Assembly (NCBI GenBank): GCA_030692045.1
Contig: JAUYCX010000037.1
Span: forward strand, 186,001 to 250,000
Direction: 5' to 3'
DNA: 64,000 nucleotides
DNA from: Candidatus Omnitrophota bacterium
GTDB taxonomy: Bacteria; Omnitrophota; Gorgyraeia; JAUYCX01
Both the position numbers and the translations under genes were made by a program. Positions 1,405 through 40,416 of this stretch are shown here, in pieces. Position 1 is the first letter of the stretch; every line of letters begins with the position of its first letter. The notes below the pieces were generated by a model. That model saw nothing but the letters and a program-made list of their open reading frames with translations. It had not been told where the DNA came from and searched no databases.

Positions 1405-1587
1405 CCCCTCGCCTAAGCGCTTGTCAATTTCTCTGAAATTGACTGCGCAGGCTTCGGGGTTAATTCGCAGACGTCCCGACGTAACGTCGGGACTACAAGT
1501 TACGTTCACTCATTTTCCGCCACAAAAATTAGCGGATCCGCCAAGTATTTTGGCGGACATTCGTTCCGTAACTTGTCTGCTCATTAA
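1405..1587 (+). promoter_or_regulatory. Multi-hairpin leader of the palindromic family, upstream of rpmE
   Basis: First hairpin: CCCC at 1405-1408 pairs with GGGG at 1456-1459. An AAGC-type helix and a variable apical stem (TCAATTTC/GAAATTGA) lie inside. Then TTAATTCGCAG (from 1460) pairs with CTGCTCATTAA (to 1587), keeping a mismatched TC/TC. This encloses a perfect small hairpin of GTCCCGACGT and its complement, plus a long arm of ACAAGTTACG against CGTAACTTGT. That long arm carries an extra GGCGGA-type hairpin at its tip. The right border runs straight into the AAGGAGG ribosome-binding site of rpmE. Copies with different bases but the same pairing lie before htpX and before the small ORF at 38467. 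Function unknown. Confidence 0.75.
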
Positions 1588-1601
1588 GGAGGTTAGACAA
1601 A

Positions 1602-1811
1602 ATGAAACAAGGCATTCACCCACAGTATCAGGAAACAACCATTACCTGTGCTTGCGGAGAGGTAATTCACACGCGTTCCACCAAAAAAAATATTCGTGTA
1701 GAAATCTGCTCTAAGTGCCATCCATTTTTTACTGGTAAGCAGAAATTTGTAGACACAGCTGGACGAGTTGAGCGGTTTATGAAAAAATACGGCCAGAAAG
1801 AAACAAAGTAA
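1602..1811 (+). CDS. rpmE: 50S ribosomal protein L31
   Basis: The 69-residue product is a zinc-type L31. Cysteines C16, C18, C36 and C39 are in the positions expected for the metal-binding C+ form, and the start MKQGIHPQY is characteristic. L31 sits at the subunit interface of the ribosome. The ATG at 1602 follows AAGGAGG by about nine bases. prfA begins three bases after its stop, so rpmE, prfA and prmC read as one operon. The structured leader immediately upstream suggests post-transcriptional control, perhaps linked to zinc or stress; that is inference only. Confidence 0.95.
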
Positions 1812-1813
1812 TA

Positions 1814-2869
1814 ATGCACGATAAATACGAAAAGATAGAAGCTCGCTTTAAAGAGTTAGAAATTATTCTTTCAGACCCACAAGTTATGGCTGATAAACTT
1901 AAATATCAGGCGTTGGTCAAAGAATTATCAGAGATAACTGAATTGGTTAATAAATATCGTGAATTAAAAAAAGTAGTTACTCAAATAGAAGAATTAAGCC
2001 AACTATTAAAGGAAAAAAACCACGAGAAAGAATTTGTGGAATTAGCCAAAGAAGAACTACAAAATCTAAAAGTAAAAGAAAATCAGATTAAATCTGAATT
2101 AGAAAATTTATCAAAGAAAAAAACTGAAGCTAAAGATTCTGATATAATCGTAGAAATTAGAGCTGGCACAGGCGGCTTAGAGGCAAGTTTATTTGCCGCG
2201 GATTTATATCGTATGTATTCCAAATATGCCTTAAGGAAAAACTGGTCAGTTGATCTATTAAGCAGCCACCCCACAGAGGCCGGAGGCTTTAAAGAGATTA
2301 TTTTCAGTATTAAAGGCAAGGATGCTTTTAAAAGGATAAAGTTTGAAAGCGGCGTGCATCGGGTGCAACGCGTGCCAACAACAGAGGCCTCTGGCAGAAT
2401 TCATACCTCAACAGCCACAGTCGCAGTTTTAATAGAACCACAAGAGGTAGAACTTAAAATTGAACCCAAAGATTTAAAGATTGATGTATTTCGTTCCTCA
2501 GGCCCGGGCGGACAAAGCGTCAATACCACAGACTCTGCTGTGCGAATTACCCATTTGCCAACTGGTATGGTAATTACCTGTCAAGATGAACGCTCTCAAT
2601 TAAAAAATAAAAATAAGGCGATGAGGGTTTTAAGGGCTCGGCTTTTAGATAAAATGCAGCAGGCCTCACAAGATAAGGTTTCAGAGGTGCGCAAATCACA
2701 AATTGGCACAGCCCAAAGGAGTGAAAAGATACGCACATATAATTTCCCGGACCGAAGGGTAACAGACCATCGCGTGGGTTTTACTATGCATCAGCTTGAA
2801 GATTTCTTAGAGGGAGATATTGATGAGCTAATTGATGCCCTTATTAAAGAAGAGGAAAATTTACAATGA
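1814..2869 (+). CDS. prfA: Peptide chain release factor 1
   Basis: A 351-residue class I release factor. The stop-codon-reading motif is P-T-T, within R-V-P-T-T-E, which marks RF1 rather than RF2 (which has SPF). The catalytic G-G-Q lies in S-S-G-P-G-G-Q-S-V-N around residue 235. It recognises UAA and UAG and triggers peptidyl-tRNA hydrolysis on the ribosome. Its stop overlaps the start of prmC by four bases. PrmC methylates the GGQ glutamine, so substrate and modifying enzyme are translationally coupled, an arrangement common in bacteria. Confidence 0.97.
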   Translation: MHDKYEKIEARFKELEIILSDPQVMADKLKYQALVKELSEITELVNKYRELKKVVTQIEELSQLLKEKNHEKEFVELAKEELQNLKVKENQIKSELENLSKKKTEAKDSDIIVEIRAGTGGLEASLFAADLYRMYSKYALRKNWSVDLLSSHPTEAGGFKEIIFSIKGKDAFKRIKFESGVHRVQRVPTTEASGRIHTSTATVAVLIEPQEVELKIEPKDLKIDVFRSSGPGGQSVNTTDSAVRITHLPTGMVITCQDERSQLKNKNKAMRVLRARLLDKMQQASQDKVSEVRKSQIGTAQRSEKIRTYNFPDRRVTDHRVGFTMHQLEDFLEGDIDELIDALIKEEENLQ

Positions 2870-3666
2870 CAGAACAAGAATTGATGCTTAGCTCTATATT
2901 AGGTTGCAGCCGTTTTGAGCTTTATGCAAAGGAATTAAATCTTTCCCAGCAAGACAAATATGAATTTGATACCTTGACTGAGTGTCGGGCAAACGGAGAG
3001 CCATTACAGTATTTATTAAGGTTTACGGAATTTATGGGATTAAAATTCTTTGTGGATAGGCGGGTATTTATTCCTCGCCCAGAGACTGAGATTTTGGTAG
3101 AAGAGGTAATAAATTTAATTAAAAAAATAAAAATCAGCGTGAAAAATATTTTAGATATTGGCACAGGTTCAGGCAATATCGCAATAAGCCTTGCCAAGTT
3201 TCTAAGAGATGTAAAGGTTACTGCAGTGGATATTTCAGAGCAAGCCCTAAGGCTAGCAAAAGAAAATTCAATTTTGAACAAGGTAGATAAAAGGGTAGAG
3301 TTTTTTAGAATGGATTTCTTAAGTAGGGAGCCTTTGATTGACAATTACCAAGTCTTTGACCTAATAGTTTCTAATCCGCCGTATATTAACACCAGTGATT
3401 TAAGTTGCTTACCCAAAGAGGTAAGGCAAGAACCTATAATTGCCTTAGATGGCGGTTGGGATGGACTAAAATTCTATCGCGGGATTATTCAAAGGATAGA
3501 TAAATTCTTAAAAAAATCTGGCTTACTTGCGTTAGAGATGGGTTTTAATCAAAGCCAAGAAATAGTCAGATTGTTAGAACAGGCGCAAAAATTTCAAATT
3601 ATAAAGATTGTTAAAGATTATACTGACATTGAAAGGGTAATCATCGCTAGGGAGAAGAAACTCTAA
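2866..3666 (+). CDS. prmC: Release factor glutamine methyltransferase
   Basis: A 266-residue SAM-dependent methyltransferase. The SAM-binding loop D-I-G-T-G-S-G-N-I lies near residue 100, and the catalytic S-N-P-P-Y-I motif, which binds the target glutamine, near residue 170. The N-terminal helical domain is present, as expected for substrate recognition. It methylates the GGQ glutamine of RF1/RF2 in the cytoplasm. The ATG overlaps the prfA stop. It is the last gene of the rpmE operon and is followed by a repeat-rich spacer of about 170 bases. Confidence 0.95.
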   Translation: MTEQELMLSSILGCSRFELYAKELNLSQQDKYEFDTLTECRANGEPLQYLLRFTEFMGLKFFVDRRVFIPRPETEILVEEVINLIKKIKISVKNILDIGTGSGNIAISLAKFLRDVKVTAVDISEQALRLAKENSILNKVDKRVEFFRMDFLSREPLIDNYQVFDLIVSNPPYINTSDLSCLPKEVRQEPIIALDGGWDGLKFYRGIIQRIDKFLKKSGLLALEMGFNQSQEIVRLLEQAQKFQIIKIVKDYTDIERVIIAREKKL

Positions 3667-3790
3667 ACACTAAACTCTAAATCCTAAACAAACTCAAAAT
3701 ACAAAACTCAAATTCTCAAAAATGTTTTGGATTTTGGGTTTAGGGTTTTGGATTTGATTAGAGTTTAGGGTTTTGGATTTAGGGTTTAAC
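3664..3790. repeat. Word-repeat inverted hairpin (CTAAA/TTTAG type)
   Basis: The left arm iterates AAACTCTAAATCCTAAA-like words and the right arm iterates GGATTTAGGGTTTTGG-like words. Together they can fold as one long AT-rich hairpin between prmC and murA. There is no ORF. It is one of about six intergenic hairpins in the window built this way, each from a different short word. Confidence 0.6.
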
Positions 3791-3835
3791 ATTTTATCTG
3801 TGTATTTTTGATATCTTTAAATTATCTTTAAAAAT

Positions 3836-5119
3836 ATGGATAAACTTATTATTGAGGGAAAAGCCAGGCTAAAGGGAGAAGTAAGCGTAAGCGGAGCAAA
3901 GAATTCTGTTCTGCCGATTTTGGCGGCTACACTTTTAACCGACGAGGAATGTCGGATTGAGAATTGCCCTAATCTGCGCGATACCCACACAATGATTAAA
4001 CTTTTAAGGAGTCTTGGCAAGAATGCTGAGTTAAATAAGAATACAATTACTGTAACATCTAAGGGAAAAACAAACTACATCGCAGATTATAAATTGGTTT
4101 CCACAATGCGCGGTTCTTTTTGCGTCTTAGGACCGCTTTTAGCTAAGTTAAAAATGGCAAGGGTATCCTTGCCAGGCGGTTGCATAATTGGTGTAAGGCC
4201 TGTGGATTTGCATTTAAAAGGAATGAGGGCATTAGGCGCTAAAATAAATGTTCAGGGCGGTTATGTTGAGGCAAAGGCAAACAGTCTTAAAGGAAATCAT
4301 ATTTATCTGGGTGGAATTTTTGGCTCTTCAGTTTTAGCTACTGCTAATGTGATGATGGCAGCGTCTTTAGCTAAAGGAAAGACAACTATCGAGTCTGCTG
4401 CTTGCGAACCAGAGCTCGTGGATTTGGCAAATTTTTTAAATAAGATGGGCGCTAAAATAAAAGGGCAGGGCTCTCCAAAATTGGAAATTGAAGGGGTAAA
4501 GGAATTACACGGCACAGAATACAATGTTATTCCTGATAGAATTGAGGCTGGCACATTTTTAATTTTATCTGCCATTACAAGAGGAGATATCACTATAAAA
4601 GATGTCTGCTGGGAGCATCTATCGGCAATAATTGATAAATTGGAAGAAGCAGGTTTTGTAATTGAGAAAACAGACCCGCCTGACTGTCGGGCAGGTTGTA
4701 AAATTCAGCTAAGGGTTAAGAGAAAAATTAATCCTGTAAATGTGACAACGCTTCCCTATCCGGGTTTTCCCACGGATTTGCAGTCTCAATTTATGACCTT
4801 GATGGCTGTAACTCCTGGCGTGAGCGTAATCACAGAAAAGGTTTTTCCGGATAGATTTATCCATATTGCAGAACTAAACAGGATGGGTGCAAAGATTATG
4901 CGCGAAGGGGCTAGTGCTATTATTGAGGGGGTTAAGCAGTTATCCGCGGCCCCTGTAATGGCTTCAGACCTAAGGGCATCGGCAGCGCTTGTTTTGGCAG
5001 GTTTGGTTGCTAAAGGTAGAACTGAAATTTCCAGGATTTATCATTTGGAGAGGGGTTATGAAAATTTAGATGAGAAATTAACTAATTTAGGCGCTCGCGT
5101 CTGGCGAGAGAAGGAATAA
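3836..5119 (+). CDS. murA: UDP-N-acetylglucosamine 1-carboxyvinyltransferase
   Basis: A 427-residue EPSP-synthase-fold enzyme that transfers enolpyruvate from PEP to UDP-GlcNAc, the first committed step of peptidoglycan synthesis. The catalytic loop reads L-P-G-G-C116-I-I-G-V-R-P-V-D, so the PEP-binding and fosfomycin-target cysteine is retained. The N-terminal S-G-A-K-N-S (K22) and the C-terminal Y-H-L-E-R-G-Y are also typical. Family length is about 420 residues. The start at 3836 has no strong ribosome-binding site. trpG follows after four bases, an unusual pairing of cell-wall and amino-acid genes in one transcript. Confidence 0.96.
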   Translation: MDKLIIEGKARLKGEVSVSGAKNSVLPILAATLLTDEECRIENCPNLRDTHTMIKLLRSLGKNAELNKNTITVTSKGKTNYIADYKLVSTMRGSFCVLGPLLAKLKMARVSLPGGCIIGVRPVDLHLKGMRALGAKINVQGGYVEAKANSLKGNHIYLGGIFGSSVLATANVMMAASLAKGKTTIESAACEPELVDLANFLNKMGAKIKGQGSPKLEIEGVKELHGTEYNVIPDRIEAGTFLILSAITRGDITIKDVCWEHLSAIIDKLEEAGFVIEKTDPPDCRAGCKIQLRVKRKINPVNVTTLPYPGFPTDLQSQFMTLMAVTPGVSVITEKVFPDRFIHIAELNRMGAKIMREGASAIIEGVKQLSAAPVMASDLRASAALVLAGLVAKGRTEISRIYHLERGYENLDEKLTNLGARVWREKE

Positions 5120-5123
5120 AAAA

Positions 5124-7473: not shown

Positions 7474-7489
7474 TTTTGAGAATTATTTT

Positions 7490-7649
7490 AACACCGCTAA
7501 GACGCAAAATGACCGCAAAAACGCAAAGAAACAAAGTAAAAAGCAGTGATAATATTAACTGTACTTAAAATAGTAAGAGAAAAATTGAGGAATTATCATT
7601 TTTTTAAAAGTTTTACGCCTTTGCGGATTTTTGCGCCTTTGCGGTGTAA
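7490..7649. repeat. Word-repeat inverted hairpin (CGCAAA type)
   Basis: The left arm is ACACCGCTAAGACGCAAAAT followed by more CCGCAAAAACGCAAAG words. The right arm, ending near 7647, reads TTTGCGGATTTTTGCGCC and TTTGCGGTGT. An AT-rich loop of about 80 bases separates them. The hairpin fills the trpC-trpF spacer and ends ten bases before the trpF start. The same word family recurs at 25495-25557. Confidence 0.75.
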
Positions 7650-7658
7650 ATATGTAAC

Positions 7659-8291: not shown

Positions 8292-8297
8292 ATTAAT

Positions 8298-10206: not shown

Positions 10207-10231
10207 AATTTTCATTAGAAATAATTATAAT
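10203..10231 (+). promoter_or_regulatory. Sigma-70-type promoter
   Basis: TTGAAA at 10203-10208 and TATAAT at 10226-10231 are separated by 17 bases. The -35 box overlaps the stop codon of the upstream radical SAM gene. It should start transcription of the exonuclease gene at 10256. Confidence 0.7.
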
Positions 10232-10255
10232 AGCGTTAATAAAATAGGAGAAAAA

Positions 10256-10927
10256 ATGGCTAAAATAATCTTTGATGTGGAAACCGTAGGTCAGGATTTT
10301 GAGTTGTTAGATGATATTTCAAAAGAATATTTCCTCAAATACGCTGATACAGAAGAAAAAAAACAAGAGGCAAAAAACAGTTTAAGTTTTTATCCCTTAA
10401 CTGCCCAAATTGTGGCAATTGGAATGCTTGATTCAGAAACCGACAAGGGTTATGTTTTTTTTCAGAATAACTCCCTAAAAAAAGAAGCCTTTAAAGAGGC
10501 AAACATCCAATTTATCTCTGGCACAGAAAAAGAAATTTTAAATAATTTCTGGAAGGTTTTAAAGGATTATACAACAGTTATCACCTTTAATGGACGGGTT
10601 TTTGATTGTCCGTTTGTAATGCTTCGTTCGGCAATATTAAAAATTAAGCCTTCAAAAAATCTAATGCCTCCACGCTATGGACACCTTGTGCATGTTGATC
10701 TTCAGGACCAGCTTTCCTTTTATGGGGCGATGTACAGGAAATTTAGTTTGCATATGTGGTGCAAGGCATTTGGCATAAAAAGCCCTAAGGAATCTGGTAT
10801 AACAGGTTTGGATGTGAAAAACCTTTTTAAAGAAGGAAGATATCTGGACATCGCCCGCTATTGCGCCGGGGATTTATCTGCTACAAAAGAACTTTACGGG
10901 TATTGGGAGAAGTATATTAAGTTTTAA
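10256..10927 (+). CDS. Predicted 3'-5' exonuclease related to PolB exonuclease domain
   Basis: A 223-residue stand-alone DnaQ-like exonuclease of the DNA_pol_B_exo2 type. Exo I is F-D-V-E-T (D7, E9), Exo II is T-F-N-G-R-x-F-D in the middle, and Exo III is A-R-Y-C-A-G-D near the C-terminus. The enzyme would remove 3' nucleotides from DNA, though its pathway is not known. GGAG seven bases upstream sets the ATG at 10256. It has its own promoter. A palindromic repeat element begins within its stop codon. Confidence 0.85.
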   Translation: MAKIIFDVETVGQDFELLDDISKEYFLKYADTEEKKQEAKNSLSFYPLTAQIVAIGMLDSETDKGYVFFQNNSLKKEAFKEANIQFISGTEKEILNNFWKVLKDYTTVITFNGRVFDCPFVMLRSAILKIKPSKNLMPPRYGHLVHVDLQDQLSFYGAMYRKFSLHMWCKAFGIKSPKESGITGLDVKNLFKEGRYLDIARYCAGDLSATKELYGYWEKYIKF

Positions 10928-11007
10928 TGAGCCCACGACTTATGGAACGAGAGTGAACATAAGTCGTCTGGGCGAATTAATCCGCCAAGCTTTGTGGCGG
11001 ATTAATT
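10924..11007 (-). repeat. Palindromic-family element (reverse orientation) plus adjacent hairpin
   Basis: Read on the minus strand, the element at 10924-10980 has the family layout. It runs TTAATTCGCCC, arm ACGACTTATG, loop, arm CATAAGTCGT, then GGGCTCATTAA. It shares the exonuclease stop codon. An abutting perfect 12-bp hairpin (AATTAATCCGCC/GGCGGATTAATT, 10975-11007) follows. No minus-strand gene is downstream, so here the element is not a leader; it may act as a 3' end or be simply inserted. Confidence 0.75.
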
Positions 11008-11026
11008 TAAATTTCCCTCCTAACCA

Positions 11027-11062: not shown

Positions 11063-11237
11063 AGCCGATAAAGGTTATCTCCGGCGAAAGCCGGAGGTCG
11101 CAAAGCCAACAGGCCTAAGTTGCCTGAAAAAGACCCCGCTAAACGCGGGGCAAACCAATGCCGGTTAGGCAAAAAATAAGGCAAGATGGCGGCTGGGTTG
11201 CCGAAGTGAGGTGAAGGAAGCTAATCCTTTATCGGCT
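11063..11237 (+). ncRNA. Cyclic-di-GMP-I (GEMM) riboswitch
   Basis: A 12-bp outer helix, AGCCGATAAAGG with CCTTTATCGGCT, encloses the GEMM core. The core has a CTCCGG stem capped by a GAAA tetraloop, the conserved CGCAAAGCC junction, GGCCTAA (tetraloop receptor side), and the diagnostic ATGGCGGCTGGGTTGCCGAAG. An extra GC-rich hairpin (CCCCGC/GCGGGG) extends the second arm. In characterised examples this fold binds c-di-GMP. Here it is followed 28 bases later by an intrinsic terminator. GAGGTG at 11208-11213 can pair with CACCTC of that terminator, suggesting transcription control. Confidence 0.87.
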
Positions 11238-11707: not shown

Positions 11708-11834
11708 ATCCCTCGCTTAAGCCCTTGAAAATTTCGAAGAAATTTTCTGCGTAAGCTCGGGATTAATTCGCAGACGGCTTTCAGCCTACAATTTACGTCG
11801 CTCTTTCAGGCTCCGTAAATTGTCTGCTCATTAA
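11708..11834 (+). promoter_or_regulatory. Multi-hairpin leader of the palindromic family, upstream of htpX
   Basis: It has the same architecture as the rpmE leader with different stem bases. Hairpin 1 is closed by ATCCC/GGGAT, with a GAAAATTTC/GAAATTTTC apical stem. Then TTAATTCGCAG pairs with CTGCTCATTAA around a GGC-TTTCA-GCC mini-hairpin, with the arm ACAATTTACG against CGTAAATTGT. The right border runs into AAAGGAGG of htpX. Confidence 0.75.
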
Positions 11835-11850: not shown

Positions 11851-12819
11851 ATGTTTTCACTAAAATTAAGAATGTGGTTATTGTGGATTGTGATGTTTGG
11901 AATTATTTACGCCATTGTTTCAATGCTTTCATATTCGTTTTTTGGCGTAAGGAATTTCAATTTCTATTTAGTCGTTTCTTTTATCATGATGTTTATTCAG
12001 TATATGATTGGCCCAAAGCTTGTGGAATGGTCAATGCGGGTTAAATATGTAAGAGAGCAGGAGTATCCGGAGCTTTTTCAGATGATTAGGGGGCTTTCTC
12101 AATTAGCCAATGTGCCAATGCCTAAGATTGGTATTTCCGATGTGTCACTTCCCAATGCCTTTGCCTTTGGCAGATGGAAGCGCGACGGAAGAATTTGCGT
12201 AACCAAAGGCATTTTAGGCCTACTGGATAGAGAAGAGCTGCGCGCAGTTTTAGGCCATGAGATGACTCACTTAAAAAATCGCGATGTCCTAACCATAACA
12301 CTTCTTTCAGTTATCCCTATGGTGCTTTACAGAATTGCCTGGAGCACGATGTATTATCGCGGTTCACGCAACCGTAGTGATGGCGCCAATACGGCTCTTA
12401 TTGGAGTGCTGGCATTTATTTTTTATTTTATCACCAACCTTTTAGTTCTTTATGCCTCAAGGATAAGAGAATATTTTGCTGATCGGGGTTCCGTATCTTT
12501 AGGTAATCCAGCGCATAATTTAGCCTCTGCACTTTATAAATTGGTTTATGGCGCTGCCAGAACTCCCAAAGAATCTCTGGCAGAGGTTGAAGGGCTTAAG
12601 GCGTTTTTTATAAATGACCCCTCTGTTGCATTGAAAGAAATCAGAGAGTTAAGTGTAATAGATAAAGACCACAGTGGTTCAATTGATTCTTTAGAATTAA
12701 TGGCTTTAAGAGACAAGCAAGTTAAAGTTTCAGCCGGAGCAAAACTTATGGAATTGTTAAGCACTCATCCAAATATGCTTAAGCGCATTAAACAATTGTC
12801 CAGCTACGAAAGGCTTTAA
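11851..12819 (+). CDS. htpX: HtpX-family membrane zinc metalloprotease with an EF-hand loop
   Basis: A 322-residue M48 protease. N-terminal membrane segments lie near residues 10-55, the zinc site H136-E-M-T-H140 and the third ligand E207 in R-E-Y-F-A-D follow, and two further hydrophobic stretches lie around 147-165 and 183-202. Family members degrade misfolded membrane proteins. Residues 271-282 form a textbook EF-hand calcium loop (D-K-D-x-S-G-x-I-D-x-x-E) in a C-terminal insertion, which E. coli HtpX lacks. The ATG at 11851 follows AAAGGAGG. Expression is probably influenced by the structured leader. Confidence 0.9.
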
Positions 12820-25557: not shown

Positions 25558-25630
25558 ATCAAATTAGTTTAAAAAAATATCTTTTTATTTTATATCCCTT
25601 TTGCGATTTCGCGTTTCGAGTTTAATAAAT

Positions 25631-28600
25631 ATGGAAGACAAAATCCTAGATGGTCTTAACCCTCAACAAAAAGAAGCGGTTATTCACAAAGAAGGTCCTT
25701 TATTGATTATTGCCGGAGCTGGAACCGGTAAAACTGCAGTAATTACCCGTCGTATTGCCTATCTTATCAGTGTAGAAAAAGTTAAGCCAGAAGAAATTCT
25801 TGCGCTCACCTTTACTGACAAAGCTGCAGGGGAAATGCAAGAGCGGGTAGATATTTTAGTTCCCTACGGCTTTACTGATACCTGGATTTCCACCTTTCAT
25901 GCCTTTGGTGATAGGGTCTTAAGGGAGAATGCCTTAGAAATGGGTTTAACTCCGGATTTTCGAGTTCTCACTCGCCCGGAAACAATTGTATTTTTTCGAG
26001 AACACCTTTTTGAGTTTCCGCTTTTCTATTACCGGCCATTAAGCGACCCCACAAAATTCATTGAGGCAATGATTACCTTATTTAGCCGCTCAAAGGATGA
26101 GGACGTATCCTCTGAAGAATATTTAGACTACTCAGAGAAACTTTTAGAAAAGGCAAATAAAGAAGCGCCAACTGATGCGGCTTTAAAAGAAGAGGCCCAG
26201 CGTCAAATAGAGCTTTCCGCTTGTTATAAAAAATATCAAGAGCTTTTAAGTAAAGAAGGAAAGGTTGATTTTGGCAACCAGTTTTATTTAACCTTAGAGC
26301 TATTTCGCAAACACCCGCAAGTTTTAAGTCGTTATCAGAGTCAATTTAAATTTATTCTGGTGGATGAATTCCAGGATACAAATTACGCCCAGTTAGAACT
26401 GGTTAAGTTATTGGCAGAAAAACACAAAAATTTAACGGTGGTGGCTGATGATGACCAGTGTGTGCCTGCAGGGACCCTGATTGAGACTATCAAAGGCAAG
26501 AAAAAGGTTGAAGATATAAAACTAGGCCAAGAGGTAATTACTGCGGTTGGCAAAGGCTATACTACAAAATCTATTGTTACCAAAATATTTAAGAATAAGA
26601 AAACAGTGCGTTTCTTAACTTTTTATACTGAAAGCGGATATAAGATTACCGTGACTAACAATCACAAAATGTTTTGTTACGTTGCGCCGTCTTTAGGTAA
26701 AAAGGATCTTTATTATGTTTATTTAATGTGGAGGCAGGGTTTGGGCTGGCGCTTAGGCACAACCTTTGATTTGTCCGGCAGATTAAGAATAGAAAGGTCA
26801 GCAGATAAGATTATTGGTATCAAGTGTTTTTCTACTGAAGAAGAGGCAGCCTATTATGAAGTTTTGTACTCATTAGAGTACGGCATACCCACTGTCTGTT
26901 TTATGAAAAGGAAAAATATCTATGTTGCTGGCCATTGGCTTGAGAGACTTTATCAAGAGATAGATACAGAAAAAGGCGCAAGAGAATTAGCCAAGGATTT
27001 AGATATTGACCTTAATAGCCATCATTTTTGTTTAGGCGCAGTTACAAGGGGTAATAAAGCAAGAATTAAGATAAACCTTGAGCTTTGTTATCGTAAATAT
27101 TCCAGCAAGACACCGCGCGCAAAGCTATTGAAAAATCCCGGTGTATCGCATTTAGTCTATTTGGAAACCTCTGATACTAAGATTATACATAAACTTCAAA
27201 AAGCAGGTTTTTCTTTAAGAAAAGCCAAAAAGGGCAAATGTTTAAAAATCGCAAGCACTGATATTAAGAAATTAGGCGTAATTACTGATAAATTGCAAAA
27301 AATTACTAACGGAATTATGGAATATAAATTCAGAGTAGGAACAAGGAACATAACTCATGGCGCATCTTTAGTAATGCCTGCCTCAAATGTTTTAAGGGGG
27401 CATTACTTGCCAATTTATAAAAATAAGCGCATCATTTACGATAGAATAACCAAGGTTACCTCAGAGCTAAAATCTCGAATAGTTTATGATTTAGAAATTG
27501 CCAGGACCCATAACTTTATTGCTGATGGAGTAGTCGTGCACAATTCTATCTATAAATGGCGAGGAGCCGCTGTAAGTAACATCTTAAATTTTATGAATAC
27601 CTACGCCCAAGCAAAAAAGATAAGTTTAACTCAAAATTACCGCTCCACACAAACAATATTAGACTCTGCCTATCGGCTAATCCAGTTTAACAATCCTGAC
27701 CGCTTTGAAGTTAAAGCAAATATAGATAAGCGATTAGTTGGCTTAGTTTCTAAGGGCAAGGAAGTTACTCATCTACATTTTGACACAATTTCCTCAGAAG
27801 CAGATGCGTTGGCAAAGATAATTGAGGATAAAGTGAAGAAAAAAGAATACTCATATCAGGATTTTGCAATTTTAGTGAGGTCCAACTCTGATGCTCAGCC
27901 CTTTTTGAGAAGTCTTAATATGAAAGGTATTCCTTGGAGATTTAGCGGCAATCAAGGGCTTTATTCACGCGAGGAAATACGTTTGTGTATTTCATTCTTA
28001 AGGATTGTTGCCAATACAGCTGATTCTTTAAGTCTGTATTATCTTTTAAGCTCTGCGATTTATAAAGTATCTCTGATGGATTTAACCAAGTGTATGCATT
28101 ATTCTTCCCGTCGACACATTCCCTTATTTAATATTTTACAAAATATTGACTCAATTGAGGAAGTTAAAGATATTTCTCCAGAATCAGCACAAAAGATTAA
28201 CAAGGCAATCTTAGAGCTCGAGAAATATATTGAAGGCTCGCGCAATTTAAGTACCGGACGGCTGTTGTATCTTTTTCTAACCGAAACTAAGTATCTTAAA
28301 GGTCTGGTGCAAAATCCTAATTTAGAAAATGAAGAGAAAATCAGAAATTTAGCGAAATTCTTTGAGATTGTCAGCAATTTTGAGAATGTGGCAAGAGAAG
28401 ATAGGGTTTTATATTTTGTAAATTATCTGGATATGCTGGTTAATGCCGGTGATGATCCGGCAACTGCTGAGGCAGACTTTGATACTGATGCAGTCAATGT
28501 CTTAACTATTCACAAGGCAAAAGGCTTGGAATTTAATCTAGTATTTTTAGTTAGTTTAGTGATGGGGCGTTTTCCTTGGCCGCATCGTCATGACCCTTTA

Positions 28601-29638
28601 GAGCTACCCCTGCCCCTGGTTAAAGATATTTTACCTTCGGGAGATTTTCATATACAGGAAGAGAGGCGGCTGTTTTATGTGGGAATGACCCGCGCAAAAA
28701 AGGAGTTATATCTAACCTCTGCGTTAGATTATGGCACAGAGCGCCAGAGAAAGATAAGCTGTTTTGTCTTCGAGGCTTTAGGCAAAGAAGAAGAATTAGC
28801 CAAGGCAAAAAAGACAAAAGCCATTGAGGAAATCAGACGGTTTGCTCCAGTTAAAGAGGCAAAAAAACTTCCCAAAACCCAAATTCCTTGCGATGAAATA
28901 TTAAACCTAAGCTACTATCAGATAGACGATTATCTCACCTGTCCTTTAAAATACAAATATGTGCATATTTTGCGTGTGCCCATTATGGAACATCATGCTG
29001 TGCTTTATGGAAAAGCTTTGCACGATAGCGTGCAGAAATATTTCCAGAATAGGATGAAAGGAATTCCTATGAAGCAGGAGGAAGTACTCCAAGTATTTGA
29101 GCAAACTTTTAAACCAGAGGGCTTTTTTAGCCGAGAACATCTGGAGGAAAGGCATAAATTAGGTATTGAGGCGCTAAAGAATTTCTATAAAACACAAGAA
29201 AAATTAGAAATTGTGCCAAAATTTATAGAAAAGTCTTTTTCTTTTGTGCTGGACTGCGACAGAATAATCGGCAGATGGGATAGAATTGATGAAGTCAACG
29301 GAGAAGCAATTATTATTGATTTTAAATCTTCAGATATCAAGAAACAAAAGGATGCAGATAAGCGCACTAAAGAAAGTTTACAGCTTTCAATTTATAGCTT
29401 GGCTTATAAAAATATTTTTGGCAAACTTCCAGACTGGCTGGAGTTGCATTTTTTAGAGTCTGGAATTGTCGGCAGGGCTAAACCACAAGAAAGTCGCTTA
29501 GAAAAAACTATTGAAGAGATAAAACAGGCATCAGCTGGAATTAGGGCTCAGGATTTTAAAGCCAAGCCCGCATTTCAAGCCTGCAGTTACTGCGCCTATA
29601 ACCAGATTTGCCCATTTTCTGTAGCGCAAACCAGGTAA
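25631..29638 (+). CDS. UvrD/PcrA-type helicase fused to a RecB-like nuclease, interrupted by an intein
   Basis: The precursor is 1335 residues. The N-extein has Walker A G-A-G-T-G-K-T near residue 32 and D-E-F-Q-D-T-N (motif II). The host sequence is broken inside motif III between D-D-D-Q and S-I-Y-K-W-R-G. After the intein come N-Y-R-S-T, H-K-A-K-G-L-E-F and G-M-T-R-A-K-K (SF1A motifs). The C-terminus is a PD-(D/E)XK nuclease (I-I-I-D-F-K-S-S) with C-T-C-P-type and C-S-Y-C-x5-C cysteines, as in Fe-S AddB/Cas4-like nucleases. I chose the ATG at 25631; a TTG at 25601 is in frame. It likely acts in double-strand-break repair. Confidence 0.93.
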   Translation: MEDKILDGLNPQQKEAVIHKEGPLLIIAGAGTGKTAVITRRIAYLISVEKVKPEEILALTFTDKAAGEMQERVDILVPYGFTDTWISTFHAFGDRVLRENALEMGLTPDFRVLTRPETIVFFREHLFEFPLFYYRPLSDPTKFIEAMITLFSRSKDEDVSSEEYLDYSEKLLEKANKEAPTDAALKEEAQRQIELSACYKKYQELLSKEGKVDFGNQFYLTLELFRKHPQVLSRYQSQFKFILVDEFQDTNYAQLELVKLLAEKHKNLTVVADDDQCVPAGTLIETIKGKKKVEDIKLGQEVITAVGKGYTTKSIVTKIFKNKKTVRFLTFYTESGYKITVTNNHKMFCYVAPSLGKKDLYYVYLMWRQGLGWRLGTTFDLSGRLRIERSADKIIGIKCFSTEEEAAYYEVLYSLEYGIPTVCFMKRKNIYVAGHWLERLYQEIDTEKGARELAKDLDIDLNSHHFCLGAVTRGNKARIKINLELCYRKYSSKTPRAKLLKNPGVSHLVYLETSDTKIIHKLQKAGFSLRKAKKGKCLKIASTDIKKLGVITDKLQKITNGIMEYKFRVGTRNITHGASLVMPASNVLRGHYLPIYKNKRIIYDRITKVTSELKSRIVYDLEIARTHNFIADGVVVHNSIYKWRGAAVSNILNFMNTYAQAKKISLTQNYRSTQTILDSAYRLIQFNNPDRFEVKANIDKRLVGLVSKGKEVTHLHFDTISSEADALAKIIEDKVKKKEYSYQDFAILVRSNSDAQPFLRSLNMKGIPWRFSGNQGLYSREEIRLCISFLRIVANTADSLSLYYLLSSAIYKVSLMDLTKCMHYSSRRHIPLFNILQNIDSIEEVKDISPESAQKINKAILELEKYIEGSRNLSTGRLLYLFLTETKYLKGLVQNPNLENEEKIRNLAKFFEIVSNFENVAREDRVLYFVNYLDMLVNAGDDPATAEADFDTDAVNVLTIHKAKGLEFNLVFLVSLVMGRFPWPHRHDPLELPLPLVKDILPSGDFHIQEERRLFYVGMTRAKKELYLTSALDYGTERQRKISCFVFEALGKEEELAKAKKTKAIEEIRRFAPVKEAKKLPKTQIPCDEILNLSYYQIDDYLTCPLKYKYVHILRVPIMEHHAVLYGKALHDSVQKYFQNRMKGIPMKQEEVLQVFEQTFKPEGFFSREHLEERHKLGIEALKNFYKTQEKLEIVPKFIEKSFSFVLDCDRIIGRWDRIDEVNGEAIIIDFKSSDIKKQKDADKRTKESLQLSIYSLAYKNIFGKLPDWLELHFLESGIVGRAKPQESRLEKTIEEIKQASAGIRAQDFKAKPAFQACSYCAYNQICPFSVAQTR
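26459..27544 (+). mobile_element. Intein (362 aa) in helicase motif III
   Basis: The intein runs from C277 (C-V-P-A-G-T-L-I) to H-N638, with serine as the +1 extein residue. Block B is T-V-T-N-N-H near residue 345; blocks F/G are V-Y-D-L-E-I-A-R-T-H-N-F-I-A-D-G followed by V-V-V-H-N. Excision restores D-D-D-Q-S-I-Y. At 362 residues it is longer than a mini-intein. I see no LAGLIDADG or HNH box. Instead, residues about 361-420 (Y-V-Y-L-M, W-R-L-G-T-T, R-L-R, and E410 in A-Y-Y-E) resemble the order of a GIY-YIG nuclease core. Confidence 0.92.
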
Positions 29639-30003: not shown

Positions 30004-30058
30004 TAAATGAAGCCACAACTTACGGAATGAAATGACGTAAGTTGTTTGGCTGAATTTA
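30004..30058 (-). repeat. Palindromic-family element (reverse orientation)
   Basis: On the minus strand it reads TAAATTCAGCC, arm ACAACTTACG, loop, arm CGTAAGTTGT, then GGCTTCATTTA. The flanks TAAAT/ATTTA differ from those of other copies (TTAAT/ATTAA) but still pair, and the internal TTC/TCA mismatch is kept. Confidence 0.7.
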
Positions 30059-30164
30059 CCCAGCACTAATTTTTGAAAGAGCGCTTTATTAAAAACAAAA
30101 GGGGGACTGGGTAATTAACTCAAAGATTTTGAACACTGCACTATTACAAAAATTAGTGCTGGGT
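30058..30164. repeat. 18-bp perfect inverted repeat with 71-base interior
   Basis: ACCCAGCACTAATTTTTG at 30058-30075 is the exact complement of 30147-30164. It lies exactly between a reverse and a forward copy of the palindromic family, giving a nested three-hairpin block ahead of the cold-shock gene. The interior has no ORF. Confidence 0.75.
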
Positions 30165-30220
30165 CCAATTCGCACAGCAACTTATGTTCATTAACATTCC
30201 ATAAGTTGCGTGCTCATTGA
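30165..30220 (+). promoter_or_regulatory. Palindromic-family element (forward) upstream of the cold-shock gene
   Basis: CAAT-TC-GCAC then arm GCAACTTATG, loop, arm CATAAGTTGC and GTGC-TC-ATTG. The flanks covary again (CAAT/ATTG). It ends eight bases before the AGGAGG of the cold-shock gene, matching the position of the longer leaders of rpmE and htpX. Confidence 0.7.
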
Positions 30221-30751: not shown

Positions 30752-30793
30752 AATTTTATTGAGAGGCGAAAAATTGAATTAAGGAGGTAATAG

Positions 30794-31063: not shown

Positions 31064-31073
31064 GGTATTGCCA

Positions 31074-36035: not shown

Positions 36036-36047
36036 AATCAACTTTCC

Positions 36048-37316: not shown

Positions 37317-37888
37317 ATCTGCCCAATAGATTAACAATTTCCAGAATTATTTTAACCTTATTTTTTATCATTTTTATTTCTTTAAAAGGCTTAGGTCCTA
37401 AGGTTGTGGCATTTATTGTTTTTATTATTGCCTCTTTAACAGATTATTATGACGGCTACTTAGCCCGTCGCAATAATCAGATAACCGACTTTGGAAAATT
37501 AATGGACCCAATTGCCGATAAGATTTTAATCCTCTCAGCTTTTTTAGCTTTTGTGCAGATGCAATTAATAAGTGCTTGGATGGTTGTAGTGATTTTTAGC
37601 CGCGAGGCGCTAATTACGGGACTGCGGCTTTTTGCAATTAACAAGGGTAAGGTTTTGGAGGCAGAGGCAGCAGGCAAGCATAAAACCGCCTCCCAAATGG
37701 TGGCTATATTTTTAATTTTCATTTTTATAATTTTTAAAGAGACGCTGCTTAGATTTTATTCTTGGGGCAACACAATTAATTCTATTTTCAGAATAAGTAT
37801 ATTTGTTTTAATGCTTATAACCGTTGGTTTAACCATTATCTCAGGCCTGTCATATCTTTGGCGGAATCGCCATTTAATCCATGTCTAA
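37313..37888 (+). CDS. pgsA: CDP-diacylglycerol-glycerol-3-phosphate 3-phosphatidyltransferase
   Basis: A 191-residue membrane CDP-alcohol phosphotransferase. The full signature D-G-x2-A-R-x8-G-x3-D-x3-D is present (D-G-Y-L-A-R...G-K-L-M-D-P-I-A-D) near residue 44, with five or so membrane helices. It makes phosphatidylglycerol phosphate. The next gene, pgpA, removes that phosphate; the two overlap by eight bases, so the pathway is complete here. Confidence 0.94.
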   Translation: MNLPNRLTISRIILTLFFIIFISLKGLGPKVVAFIVFIIASLTDYYDGYLARRNNQITDFGKLMDPIADKILILSAFLAFVQMQLISAWMVVVIFSREALITGLRLFAINKGKVLEAEAAGKHKTASQMVAIFLIFIFIIFKETLLRFYSWGNTINSIFRISIFVLMLITVGLTIISGLSYLWRNRHLIHV

Positions 37889-38336
37889 AAAACTTTTCAA
37901 ATTAATTTCTACATTTTTTTATTTAGGTTGTTTTCCTTTTATTCCCGGCACAATGGGTAGTTTTGCGGGGGTTTTGGTTTATCTGTTTGTGGCTGATTTT
38001 TTAACCGCCTATGCGGTAATGACAATATATATTTTAATTTTAGGTTTTGCGGTTTGTAGTCAGGCAGAAAAGTTATTTGAAAGAAATGACCCGCCAGAGG
38101 TAGTGATTGATGAGGTTTGCGGAATGCTTATTGCCTTGTTTAGCTTGCCTAAGACTTGGCCAATTATTTTTTGCGCCTTTTTTCTGTTTAGAGGTTTTGA
38201 TACGATTAAACCTTGGCCAATTGATAAATTGGAAAAAGTTCCATTTGGCGCTGGCATAATGCTGGATGATATAATGGCTGGGGTTTATACGAATTTGGTT
38301 ATGCGGATAGCATTGTTGTTAGCACCCCTTGCTTAA
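37881..38336 (+). CDS. pgpA: Phosphatidylglycerophosphatase A
   Basis: A 151-residue membrane phosphatase. V-I-D-E-V-C-G-M near residue 70, R-G-F-D-T-I-K-P-W-P and D-D-I-M-A-G-V are PgpA hallmarks. It dephosphorylates PGP to phosphatidylglycerol. The last codons (A-P-L-A-stop) lie inside the first hairpin of a palindromic-family leader, so that element supplies the 3' end of the reading frame, suggesting insertion at the gene end. Confidence 0.94.
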   Translation: MSKKLFKLISTFFYLGCFPFIPGTMGSFAGVLVYLFVADFLTAYAVMTIYILILGFAVCSQAEKLFERNDPPEVVIDEVCGMLIALFSLPKTWPIIFCAFFLFRGFDTIKPWPIDKLEKVPFGAGIMLDDIMAGVYTNLVMRIALLLAPLA

Positions 38337-38454
38337 GCGCGCCGAAAATCTCTTCGACATTTTCGGCGCAAGCTTCGGGGTCAATTCGCAGACGCCCTAC
38401 GGGCTACAATTTATGTCGTCCTTTCAGGACTTCCATAAATTGTCTGCTCATTGA
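38325..38454 (+). promoter_or_regulatory. Multi-hairpin leader of the palindromic family, upstream of a 36-aa ORF
   Basis: Hairpin 1 is CCCC/GGGG with GCTTAAGCGC/GCGCAAGC and a GCCGAAAATC/GATTTTCGGC-like apical stem. Then TCAATTCGCAG pairs with CTGCTCATTGA around a GCCC-TAC-GGGC mini-hairpin and an ACAATTTATG/CATAAATTGT arm. All four variable stems differ from those in the rpmE and htpX leaders yet still pair. AAAGGAGG follows. Confidence 0.75.
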
Positions 38455-38466
38455 AAGGAGGAAGAA

Positions 38467-38577
38467 GTGTCTTCACAATTGTTTTGGCAGATTGTGCTTT
38501 TGATTATCATCTTTGTATTTGTGAAAAGTTTTGTTAAATGCATGCATGATACGTATTGTATGAAGTGTAAGAAGTAA
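38467..38577 (+). CDS. Single-pass membrane peptide with C-terminal CxxC (36 aa)
   Basis: GTG at 38467 follows AAAGGAGGAAGAA. The 36-residue product has one hydrophobic helix (residues about 6-20) and a cysteine-rich tail K-C-M-H-D-T-Y-C-M-K-C-K-K, which may bind a metal. The full-length structured leader and strong ribosome-binding site argue that it is translated. I know no family. Confidence 0.5.
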   Translation: MSSQLFWQIVLLIIIFVFVKSFVKCMHDTYCMKCKK

Positions 38578-38699
38578 TTATCCTACCCAGTTTTTAGCAA
38601 CTCAATTCTTTTTCGCTCACACACCCTTAAGTTGGCTCGCTGTTAGAACAAATTCAAACAAATTCATATCAGAACTCCCTAATTATTTCTCTGATAATC

Positions 38700-39269
38700 T
38701 TATTTGAGATTTGCTGGATTTAGTACTTCGTAGATAGGTCCTGATGGCGTAAGAGTGCTCTTAAAGAGAGTTAGTTTATCAACTTCCTGAATTATAGGTG
38801 AAGAGATTTTAGTTTGCTTCAACTTATCAATTAAATGAATCATGCCGCGAGATGACCTGATCCTGCCGATTGTGATGTGAGGAGTAAATTCGCGTTCTTC
38901 TTTGGCAAAACCTAATTTCTCTAATTTTTCCTCAAGAGACAAAACAATTTCAGCAATAATTCCAGTTGGTTCTTGGCAATTAAACCAGATAACTCGAGGG
39001 GATGAGATTTTGGGAAATACGCCCAATTCATTTAATTCAAAACTAAATCTTTCAAAATTAGCTGCGATGTCTTTAAGTATTTGAAAGATAATTTCAATTT
39101 GAGAAGTTTCAACATTGCCTAAGAATTTTAAGGTTAGATGAATATTTTCTGGCTTAACCCATTTGACATCAGCTCCTGAGGATTTTAATTCTCTTTGAAT
39201 TTGGGAAATTTTTTCTTGGTTTTCTGGGGAAAGTTCTATGGCGATAAAGGAGCGGATGGTTTCACTCAT
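38700..39269 (-). CDS. thpR: RNA 2',3'-cyclic phosphodiesterase
   Basis: A 189-residue 2H phosphoesterase (LigT/ThpR). The two catalytic motifs are H44-L-T-L and H131-I-T-I, within the usual R-S-F-I-A-I-E-L start. It opens 2',3'-cyclic phosphates in RNA. Minus strand, overlapping pncC by four bases. The pair is convergent with the pgpA operon. Confidence 0.93.
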   Translation of the reverse strand: MSETIRSFIAIELSPENQEKISQIQRELKSSGADVKWVKPENIHLTLKFLGNVETSQIEIIFQILKDIAANFERFSFELNELGVFPKISSPRVIWFNCQEPTGIIAEIVLSLEEKLEKLGFAKEEREFTPHITIGRIRSSRGMIHLIDKLKQTKISSPIIQEVDKLTLFKSTLTPSGPIYEVLNPANLK

Positions 39270-39730
39270 AACATTTTTTCTAGAAGTTTCAAAGCAGATT
39301 CAGCTGCCAGTGATTTAATTGAAAGCCGGCGTCCTTTAAAATTAAATTTCTTTACAATTGATTTTTCAGCTATGGCTAAGGCAATGTAAACTAAACCCAC
39401 TGGTTTTGTGGCGGTTGCGCCAGTTGGTCCGGCAATTCCCGTAATTGCCATGCCAAAATCTGTTTTGGCGATTTTTCTAATGTTTTTCGCCATTAAAAGG
39501 CAGGCCTCTTTACTTACAGCGCCTTTTGTTTTGATTAAATTTTCGCTTATATTAAGTAGATTTATTTTTGCTTGATTAGAATAGGCAACAATTCCCAATT
39601 TAAAATATCGAGAACTGCCGGGAATGTTGGTTAGTTTATGGCAAATTAATCCTCCGGTGCAGGATTCGGCGATAGATATAGTTTTGTGTTTTTGCTTTAG
39701 AAGTTTTGCAATCTTTTGTTCTGTTTTCAT
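39266..39730 (-). CDS. pncC: Nicotinamide-nucleotide amidase (CinA C-terminal domain)
   Basis: A 154-residue stand-alone CinA C-terminal domain. S-I-A-E-S-C-T-G-G-L near residue 18 has the catalytic serine region, and I-T-G-I-A-G-P-T-G-A lies near residue 100. It deamidates NMN in pyridine-nucleotide recycling. The N-terminal CinA domain is absent. It is translated first in a two-gene minus-strand operon with thpR. Confidence 0.92.
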   Translation of the reverse strand: MKTEQKIAKLLKQKHKTISIAESCTGGLICHKLTNIPGSSRYFKLGIVAYSNQAKINLLNISENLIKTKGAVSKEACLLMAKNIRKIAKTDFGMAITGIAGPTGATATKPVGLVYIALAIAEKSIVKKFNFKGRRLSIKSLAAESALKLLEKML

Positions 39731-39749
39731 TCTGATTTAAGATTTTCTT

Positions 39750-39793
39750 AACGCAAATGGTCGCAGATTTAAATTATCTGCGTAATCTGCGTT
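39750..39793. repeat. Word-repeat inverted hairpin (GCAGATT type)
   Basis: AACGCAAATGGTCGCAGATT pairs with AATTATCTGCGTAATCTGCGTT-like sequence. It lies just upstream of pncC and is the same design as the other word-repeat hairpins. Confidence 0.6.
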
Positions 39794-39845
39794 CAAAAAG
39801 TTTATTTATTAATTATATCATAGCTTAAGATAAATTACTTAAAAT

Positions 39846-40031
39846 AAATTTCTTGGTCGAGAAAGTCTTGTCGGCATCAAGCGAAATTTAAACCCCGTTA
39901 GAAATTTTGCTTTCCTAAGAATAGCCATAACGATATTTCTAACGGGGTAAACGTCAGCTGGCAAATATTTCTTGCGCCGACAAAGTCTTGTCGGCATCAA
40001 GAAAAAACTAAACGCTAGTCAGCAGTTTTTT
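39846..40031. repeat. Two structured hairpin units with 120-bp spacing
   Basis: Both units contain the identical word AAAGTCTTGTCGGCATCAAG, at 39862-39881 and 39982-40001. In each, it forms a TTGTCGGC-type hairpin inside a TTTCTTG/CAAGAAA-type outer stem. Each unit continues with AAAC-C/G and a second hairpin whose stem differs between copies: GCGAAATTT/AAATTTTGC in unit 1 and AAGAAAAAACT/AGTTTTTTCTT in unit 2. A 14-bp stem ACCCCGTTAGAAAT/ATTTCTAACGGGGT spans between units. There is no ORF and no known family. Confidence 0.6.
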
Positions 40032-40032
40032 C

Positions 40033-40061
40033 TTGACAATGCGAATCTTTTGGGTTATATT
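40033..40061 (+). promoter_or_regulatory. Promoter of the FMN riboswitch and riboflavin operon
   Basis: TTGACA at 40033-40038 and TATATT at 40056-40061 are separated by 17 bases. The -35 box overlaps the descending arm of the preceding hairpin. Start expected near 40068. Confidence 0.8.
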
Positions 40062-40068
40062 TATAAAG

Positions 40069-40243
40069 CTTTCGGGATAAGGTGAAATACCTGACTGGTA
40101 GTGAACCCTTAAGCGTAGTCGAAGGGTAAGCCTACGAGCCTTGAGCGAAGCGGAAGGCGAAGTCCCGCCAAAGGCGGGACGAGGACTCAAGGTTGAGTTG
40201 GTGAAATGCCAACGCCAATAGTATAGTCTAGATGGGAGAGAGC
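40069..40243 (+). ncRNA. FMN riboswitch (RFN element)
   Basis: Conserved blocks are in order: GGGATAAGGTGAAATACCTG and ACTGGTAGTGA, then GCCTACGAGCC, then TTGGTGAAATGCCAAC, GCCAATAGTATAGTC and TAGATGGGAGAGAGC. Outer helix GCTTTC pairs with GAGAGC. The variable arm is long and GC-rich (a CCCGCC/GGCGGG hairpin). It senses FMN and sits before ribBA-ribH-ribD-ribE. Confidence 0.96.
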
Positions 40244-40284
40244 AGAACCACAGATTACACAGATTTAGACTTGATTACACAGAT

Positions 40285-40315
40285 AATCCCGAAGGCAACT
40301 TAGGGATTTTTTTTT
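40285..40315 (+). terminator. Terminator in the FMN riboswitch expression platform
   Basis: AATCCC pairs with GGGATT around a 12-base loop, then nine Ts. FMN binding would favour this hairpin. The spacer before it carries CACAGATTACACAGATT-like word repeats, which could form the competing structure. Confidence 0.82.
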
Positions 40316-40416
40316 GAGCCCACGACTTACGGAACGAAGAGACGTAAGTCGTATGGGCGAAAAAATCCCGCCCTTTTGGCACGAGCGAAAAATATAAACT
40401 ACCAAAAGGGCGGGAT
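40310..40416 (-). repeat. Palindromic-family element (reverse) followed by a 15-bp hairpin
   Basis: On the minus strand TTTTTTCGCCC, ACGACTTACG, loop, CGTAAGTCGT, GGGCTCAAAAAA (40310-40365). The outer flanks are A/T runs that still pair, and one is the T-tract of the riboswitch terminator. ATCCCGCCCTTTTGG (40365-40379) then pairs perfectly with 40402-40416. Confidence 0.7.

Follow-up and report, generated by a model that had tools for sequence, protein, structure and literature searches.

Palindromes in the window

The window, by which we mean the whole 64,000-nt stretch of DNA that was analysed, holds seven copies of a palindrome here called HP. All seven had been listed in a first-pass annotation and all were found, the final copy at 40311-40365; the layout attributed to them was also borne out, including N5 flanks that differ between copies but are complementary within each. 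In order, an HP consists of an N5 flank, TC, a 4-bp stem, a 2-nt bulge (or an inserted hairpin) and an arm AC[AG]A[CTG]TTA[CT]G, followed by a loop, the complementary arm, a 4-bp stem, TC and the complementary N5, and the foot in aligned copies reads TNAATTC / TCATTNA.

The first copy (1460-1587, plus strand) contains two inserted hairpins and lies directly 5' of the Shine-Dalgarno (SD) sequence (AAGGAGG) of rpmE (1602-1811; Pfam match Ribosomal_L31). It adjoins a plus-strand hairpin of a second palindrome family at 1405-1459 (CCCC-TC-GCCT-AA-GCGC...GCGC-AGGC-TTC-GGGG), the C-run and G-run ends of which recur at 11710-11761 and 38325-38380. The copy at 10924-10980 (minus strand) overlaps the stop codon of the ORF at 10256-10927, a predicted exonuclease, while that at 11763-11834 (plus strand), adjoined by the hairpin CCCTCGC..GCTCGGG (11710-11761, plus strand), lies shortly upstream of the SD of an M48 peptidase gene (11851-12819). 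Another hairpin, CCCC..GGGG (38325-38380, plus strand), adjoins the copy at 38381-38454 (plus strand), which is followed by AAAGGAGG and by a short ORF with a GTG start. The final copy (minus strand) has an FMN riboswitch on one side and the next gene on the other; an inverted-repeat hairpin, CCCGCCCTTTTGG..CCAAAAGGGCGGG, occupies 40367-40414 (plus strand), and its repeat is nearly the same as that bounding the GIY-YIG gene of L186/L310. Rfam matches in the window are limited to FMN, c-di-GMP-I and tRNA. Every HP in the window directly adjoins a second hairpin or an inverted-repeat arm, a point that the annotation had missed, and in the copies at 1460, 11763 and 38381 an extra hairpin replaces the 2-nt bulge.

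The remaining two copies, at 30004-30058 (minus strand) and 30165-30220 (plus strand), are both present, but as parts of one composite rather than as two independent copies. This complete non-autonomous composite (30004-30220, plus strand) has the form HP(-) - TIR - 71-nt spacer - TIR - HP(+), with the left terminal inverted repeat (TIR), CCCAGCACTAATTTTTG, at 30059-30075 and the right one, CAAAAATTAGTGCTGGG, at 30147-30163 (both plus strand), and it reaches as far as the SD of a cold-shock-like gene, the ATG of which is at about 30241. Its two ends match those of GIY-YIG element L311 with 93% and 83% identity, and a repeat nearly the same as CCCAGCACTAATTTTTG bounds GIY-YIG genes in L281-L283, L291 and L307.

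Copy number and covariation

The annotation had proposed a covariance-model search of this and related genomes, and further copies proved abundant. A model built from 22 copies gave at least 132 HPs in this genome (G000) at E<=1e-3. HPs were also present in 151 of the 246 genomes of the class and in members of other classes within the phylum; copy number is patchy, from 0 to at least 132 per genome. In the 2.19-Mb genome the arm-loop-arm pattern is matched exactly 42 times, against 0 times for a reversed control pattern. The covariation suspected in the arms is well above both of its controls: both sides change in 12 of 19 pairs, and the score is 0.415, compared to 0.142 +/- 0.015 for shuffled copies (reached in 0 of 500 shuffles) and at most 0.070 when partners are slid.

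The cause of this covariation is a separate matter from the mobile-element reading developed below. It is quite conceivable, though we would hold the idea only tentatively, that the covariation is unselected and that template switching during replication of quasi-palindromes copies one arm onto the other. Such copying would fit the near-perfect Watson-Crick pairing with few intermediates, the complementarity of the inner flank to a context-dependent outer flank, and the occurrence of chimeric copies and of copies with inverted apical loops. However, the TC/TC mismatch, the bulge and the loop mismatches persist across HPs, which argues that something keeps them from being perfected. A duplication of TNA at single HPs was considered and rejected, since N and N' are complementary rather than equal.

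Hairpin pairs and the nuclease gene between them

When neighbouring HPs lie less than 600 bp apart, they are arranged as HP(-) followed by HP(+), and hence face outward, in 41 of 43 pairs. These pairs sit after the stop codon of one gene and before the SD of the next, and the outer HP flank often provides the stop codon of the upstream gene. Longer composites hold, between the HPs, a gene for a GIY-YIG nuclease of ~80 residues (in G000, G033 and G025). Across the elements the protein is a single GIY-YIG domain of about 80-110 residues that matches PF01541 with E values of 1e-9 to 4e-11, and its invariant residues (Y18, G20, R28, H32 and E56) include the Y-x-G, Arg, His and Glu of GIY-YIG enzymes. 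Pfam matches of the element ORF are confined to GIY-YIG and related nuclease models, with no DDE transposase among them.

HPs are enriched next to the nuclease gene. An HP lies within ~40 bp in 18 of the 30 best nuclease matches (on both sides in 10), as compared to 0 of 30 generic GIY-YIG genes with an HP within 100 bp and 0 of 29 plsX loci with an HP. The gene downstream of the element is co-directional with the nuclease ORF in 47 of 48 cases. One genome, G003, has many HPs and few GIY-YIG genes.

Terminal inverted repeats, insertion sites and an empty site

TIRs bound 27 of 29 element-type GIY-YIG genes, versus 1 of 29 generic GIY-YIG genes and 0 of 29 Y1 genes. They are 14-24 bp long and begin with CCC, and their sequence varies between elements and matches within one. 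In the HP-bearing subtype, to which the window belongs, an HP is appended to the outer side of each TIR, giving HP(-)-TIR-...-TIR'-HP(+). HP-free relatives are ~290 bp long and are inserted in start codons at A|TGAA, with TGAA on both sides in 8 of 19 and on the right flank in 13 of 19; no target-site duplication (TSD) was seen in L288 and L289. In these elements the SD and ATG of the host begin the nuclease ORF (MNPAP...), which stops at the right TIR (...GAG*), and the right TIR carries a new SD that, together with the duplicated TGAA, gives the interrupted gene a GTG start. A single ORF running from TIR to TIR with a restored GTG was read in L294, L306, L313, L316, L339, L343 and L347. Elements are found at unrelated genes, including nrdR, an rfbA-like gene, rpmF-plsX and others.

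An empty site for the nrdR insertion of G184 was found in its genus mate G084: the joined flanks from G184 align without gaps to G084 (750 of 889 positions identical), and the insertion measures 295 bp, including one TGAA. This HP-free insertion is the one strict empty site, the comparison for HP-bearing elements being that at rpmF-plsX, which falls short of a strict empty site. The boundaries of HP-bearing composites show a modest excess of direct repeats (anchored permutation p = 0.011) and no clean TSD, and an unanchored TSD test on these composites gave no signal. Between G033 and its genus mate G059 the DNA is too diverged for an empty-site alignment.

A probable, very small mobile element

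The palindromes are very probably the outer termini of a tiny mobile element with a single gene, that for a GIY-YIG nuclease, and those of the many non-autonomous elements derived from it. At the level of sequence, the family, its structure, its linkage to the nuclease, the TIRs and the gene-preserving placement are established, and mobility is demonstrated for one insertion, by its TSD and empty site. The core of the element is [TIR]-GIY-YIG gene-[TIR']. We infer that the nuclease drives the element, perhaps by cutting the target and/or the folded ends, and that copying may proceed via DNA intermediates folded into hairpins or cruciforms, which would account for arms that always match. The short HP copies share their ends with the nuclease-bearing ones and would be mobilised in trans. 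An HP-free element would enter a start codon at A|TGAA and duplicate TGAA; the captured host SD and ATG would then start the nuclease, and the right TIR would resupply an SD and a GTG start to the entered gene. We lean, with some reserve, towards a new class of autonomous transposon of ~290 bp, in which a GIY-YIG protein of ~100 residues is the transposase, the repeats are recognised by their shape and not their sequence, and start codons are targeted with the ribosome-binding site and start supplied anew.

Alternatively, the GIY-YIG gene could be a passenger resembling a homing endonuclease, with a host or trans-acting recombinase moving the inverted-repeat element. To our knowledge, GIY-YIG domains have been described in homing endonucleases and in repair nucleases, not in transposases, and many copies have no nuclease gene. 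This alternative is nonetheless unlikely: in the elements read, among 51 with a TIR score of at least 12, the GIY-YIG ORF is the sole gene between the repeats, it often spans the whole distance between the TIRs, and Y1 transposases are unlinked.

The annotation had also raised a multi-hairpin leader or RNA motif, and a cis-regulatory RNA, such as a protein-binding or translation-controlling hairpin, would be in keeping with the strong covariation and with the many HPs directly 5' of an SD and start codon. Yet G·T pairs (18) do not outnumber A·C mispairs (22) among 2355 HP pairs, which argues that the pairing arose or was maintained at the level of DNA rather than RNA. Moreover, of 134 copies 40 are at the 3' ends of genes and 52 at 5' ends, copy number is patchy, no Rfam match was found at the HPs, and a mobile element accounts for their placement; a leader is thus highly improbable.

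REPINs and REP sequences associated with RAYTs (PMC3116915, PMC3733652) are short, imperfect, intergenic palindromes that form inverted pairs and occur many times per genome, and the HPs resemble them in these respects (41 HP(-)..HP(+) composites), as well as in having non-autonomous copies. That a RAYT (Y1) transposase spreads the HPs as REP/REPIN elements nevertheless deserves hardly any credence: the genome does hold 6 Y1_Tnp genes, and among the first 39 genomes every one with at least 11 HPs has at least one Y1 gene, but no HP lies within ~1.5 kb of any of 35 Y1_Tnp loci, G008 and G034 have HPs without a Y1 gene and G006, G018 and G026 the reverse, the GTAG/CGTC tag of REP/RAYT systems is absent from the foot of aligned HPs, and a different gene, GIY-YIG, lies with CCC TIRs between the palindromes. 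The first-pass description of a selected, REP-like structure with a fixed internal loop was largely right as to a dispersed, intergenic family of palindromes in inverted pairs, but not as to the RAYT link that it had named as a check.

Comparison with known systems

The element fits no transposon class that we found described. Like insertion sequences (DDE or HUH) and MITEs, it has one ORF between TIRs, a TSD and small non-autonomous derivatives; of the hallmarks of a DDE insertion sequence, TIRs around one ORF (27 of 29) and, in the HP-free subtype, a TSD are present, and a DDE transposase is not. Unlike those elements, it measures about 290-460 bp overall, encodes as its sole protein an 80-110 residue GIY-YIG nuclease, has TIRs that vary between elements while matching within each, and inserts into start codons, replacing the SD and start codon. 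A length of ~290 bp is, as far as we know, far below that of known autonomous insertion sequences.

Free-standing GIY-YIG homing endonucleases, such as Seg of phage T4, are likewise single-domain genes that spread to intergenic gaps. A homing endonuclease gene homes to one cognate site by way of flanking homology, whereas the present element is bounded by TIRs, shows a 4-bp TSD and occupies many unrelated sites, with no constant cognate site among those at nrdR, the rfbA-like gene, rpmF-plsX and others. The double-hairpin elements and GC clusters of fungal mitochondria are mobile hairpin pairs too, but belong to organelle genomes, and we know of no GIY-YIG ORF linked between their hairpins. 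Insertions with a GIY-YIG ORF in rRNA genes of CPR bacteria match neither intron class and, as the paper notes, do not look to have spread by homing; they differ from the present element in residing in rRNA genes and in another group (PMC11270868).

If the nuclease does mobilise the element, this would be a transposon class without any known transposase fold and among the smallest possible transposons, one short ORF with its own inverted repeats as ends. It illustrates how a selfish element can survive in dense operons while leaving the genes at its insertion sites intact: it captures start signals and supplies an SD, a start and a stop in return. A mobile element also accounts for a hairpin family spread through the phylum, which might otherwise be mistaken for regulatory RNA, and the HPs are a case in which strong covariation is no evidence of RNA function. 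A GIY-YIG system specific for start codons could serve as a DNA-targeting tool.

Relatives elsewhere and short composites

Searches of plasmids, phages and viral contigs gave four distant rhizobial GIY-YIG matches to the nuclease on plasmids, none in phages, and four weak relatives on viral contigs that have no matching inverted repeats; the window leader had no matches in a plasmid search. Among the short HP composites, the gap has a mode of ~105 nt. A strict tie between the internal T/A polarity of these 105-nt composites and gene direction was seen in the first three contigs and failed in the full set, in which T was found in 10 of 13 at 3' ends and A in 12 of 18 at 5' ends.

The palindrome family

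The first-pass annotation described seven copies of a dispersed palindrome (HP) that share a common layout; all seven are real, and the layout was confirmed. An exact arm-loop-arm pattern had 42 matches in the draft source genome (2.19 Mb) versus none for the reversed pattern, and a covariance model built from 22 copies (R1) found at least 132 copies there. At E<=1e-6, R1 matches occur in 151 of the 246 genomes of the class and also outside it, in genomes from other classes of the same phylum; a genome may have no copy or more than a hundred. At its base the HP has 5-6 bp of stem, reaching 8 at most, and then a TC/TC mismatch. Next come 4 bp of free sequence, which lead to either a 2-nt bulge or a hairpin inserted in its place; the 10-bp arm follows, and the structure closes with another small mismatch and the apical hairpin. 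Read on the opposite strand, the mismatches are GA/GA, which is the tandem G·A type. The proposed covariation also held, with a score of 0.415 versus 0.142 after shuffling and at most 0.070 with slid partners, and both-side variation was seen at 12 of the 19 paired positions of the HP.

At three loci (L001 1501, L025 2025 and L032 1973) the HP carries its apical loop in the opposite orientation to the base, and the copy at L021 2011 is chimeric; these look as if they were products of recombined palindrome arms. A second hairpin family (CCCC-TC-GCCT-AA-GCGC...), found in the window at 1405-1459, 11710-11761 and 38325-38380, has an HP-like architecture (mismatch, 4 bp, 2-nt bulge) with a different arm sequence, and lies immediately upstream of an HP at all three places. 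Another palindromic family, AACACTAATT..CGCGAAT / ATTAGTGGTAATTAGCG, occurs at window 45660-45741 and at L042 1288-1384, a locus with a gene for a Y1 transposase.

Pairing at the DNA level

If an RNA fold were under selection, G·U pairs would be tolerated more readily than A·C. In the 115 HP copies with all three stems sufficiently complete, the 2355 pairs counted comprise 2284 Watson-Crick, 18 G·T and 22 A·C pairs and 31 of other kinds, and HPs lie at gene 3' ends (40 copies) as well as 5' ends (52). Since G·T is not favoured over A·C and 3'-end copies are present, the pairing is maintained, or was created, at the DNA level, either by hairpin selection or by template switching. The structure noticed in the first-pass annotation is real and important, but its reading as a leader or RNA motif gives way to another, in which HPs form the ends of a mobile element. 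Two HP copies adjoin riboswitches in the window, the one at 10924-10980 a c-di-GMP-I riboswitch (11063-11205) and the one at 40311-40365 an FMN riboswitch (40064-40247).

Ends of a mobile element

Neighbouring HPs less than 600 bp apart follow the order HP(-) then HP(+) in 41 of 43 pairs, with an internal gap mostly near 105 nt and sometimes near 270. Directly inside each HP is an inverted-repeat or hairpin arm, usually starting with CCC, whose sequence is CCCAGCACTAATTTT in most of the source genome and different elsewhere. Such composites (two HPs and the DNA between) span the whole gap from the upstream gene's stop codon to the next gene's Shine-Dalgarno sequence. At gene 3' ends the outer flank of the HP often contributes the stop codon, TGA or TAA according to frame (distances -6, -3, -2). 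At 5' ends the usual outer flank is TCATTNA, with AAGGAGG after it. In each case the inner flank complements whichever outer flank is present.

The source genome carries one HP-bearing element between rpmF and plsX, a junction that in relatives is mostly short and has no R1 match in any. Direct repeats at the outer boundaries of HP-bearing elements are somewhat commoner than in mismatched pairs (p = 0.011), the best being 16/18 at L178, and this comparison found no uniform target-site duplication.

A GIY-YIG gene between the ends

Composites of the ~270-nt class encode a GIY-YIG protein (PF01541) of ~80 residues. HP-GIY-HP units were also found in two genomes from other families of the class (G033 and G025), where the proteins are down to 33-36% identical to the first. 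With a profile of eight HP-flanked GIY-YIG proteins, searched across 246 genomes, an HP lay within ~40 bp in 18 of the 30 best loci and on both sides in 10, always HP(-) on the left and HP(+) on the right. Controls had no HP within 100 bp of 30 generic GIY-YIG loci and none at 29 plsX loci. The suggestion of a REP/RAYT-like hairpin fared poorly, as none of 35 Y1 transposase loci had an HP within ~1.5 kb.

Matching terminal inverted repeats (TIRs; score >=12), sought in the flanks only and without R1, bound 27 of 29 element-type GIY-YIG genes; among the controls they bound 1 of 29 generic GIY-YIG genes and none of 29 Y1 genes. An enlarged set holds 51 such elements, of which 32 have HP-type flanks and 19 do not. 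The repeats match within each element and vary between elements (CCCAGCACTAATTTT, CCCCCACACCAATTAT, CCCCGCACCTTCT, CCCAGCCCCTCCT, CCCCGCCCTTTTGGC, CCCTTGACATTTTGC). The unit consists of a single GIY-YIG gene between TIRs, and many short copies share its ends. Of the 48 elements whose downstream open frame could be called, 47 have the nuclease ORF in the same direction as that frame. The solved sequences found nearest to the nuclease, UPF0213 proteins and SLX1, all match weakly. Structure-specific nucleases such as SLX1 belong to the GIY-YIG enzymes, as do restriction and homing enzymes.

Insertion at start codons

The HP-free subtype inserts at start codons with a target-site duplication. The placement of the elements spares the genes. 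TGAA forms the right flank in 13 of the 19 HP-free elements and the left flank as well in 8, the target being the start codon, A|TGAA. At seven loci (L306, L313, L316, L339, L343, L347 and L294) a single ORF starts at the captured ATG or GTG and reads through the GIY-YIG domain; it begins MNPAP... or similar, as encoded by the left repeat, and in five of the seven it terminates at the right repeat with GAG* or RAG*. The interrupted gene regains a GTG start from the last G of the right repeat plus TGAA, preceded within that repeat by AGGAGG, GGAAGG or GAAGG, and its protein starts plausibly, e.g. VKCPFCGYKED (NrdR), VKGIVLAGG or VNILQILPE. L294 and L347 hold nested or tandem start-codon elements, the GIY-YIG element lying beside further CCCCGCACC or CCCCGCCC repeats.

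A search for NrdR among relatives in the genus and family of G184, a genome with a 295-bp insert (one TGAA included) at nrdR, revealed an empty site. The joined flanks minus the insert align without gaps to G084 over 889 bases (750 identical) and to G310 over 907 bases, across the junction ...ATATGAAATGTCC..., and the element was therefore inserted at this site with a 4-bp duplication. L382, in genome G171, seems to be a decayed relative at the same nrdR start codon. The remnants upstream of nrdR at L382 and at L375 in genome G323 (ATGAACCCTGCAC...; GGTACGGG|ATGAAG) have the appearance of insertions at that codon, either independent or decayed.

Mechanism and known systems

The GIY-YIG protein may cut the target, the folded ends, or both. 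Because the ends vary in sequence yet stay matched, the simplest guess is that they would be recognised by shape and that copying would pass through a hairpin or cruciform stage. The element has a domain found in homing enzymes, but does not keep to one cognate site; it resembles REPINs, but lacks their RAYT and tag; and it acts like an insertion sequence with its MITEs, but without a DDE transposase. An open-access library, a scope outside which most subscription journals and all preprints fall, yielded no description of such an element, and its novelty is provisional to that extent. The nearest lead comes from CPR rRNA genes, in which insertions of unknown type encode GIY-YIG proteins (PMC11270868).

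Elsewhere in the window, at 25601-29638, a 1345-aa UvrD/AddA-like helicase-nuclease ORF carries an intein (PF14890, residues 318-648).
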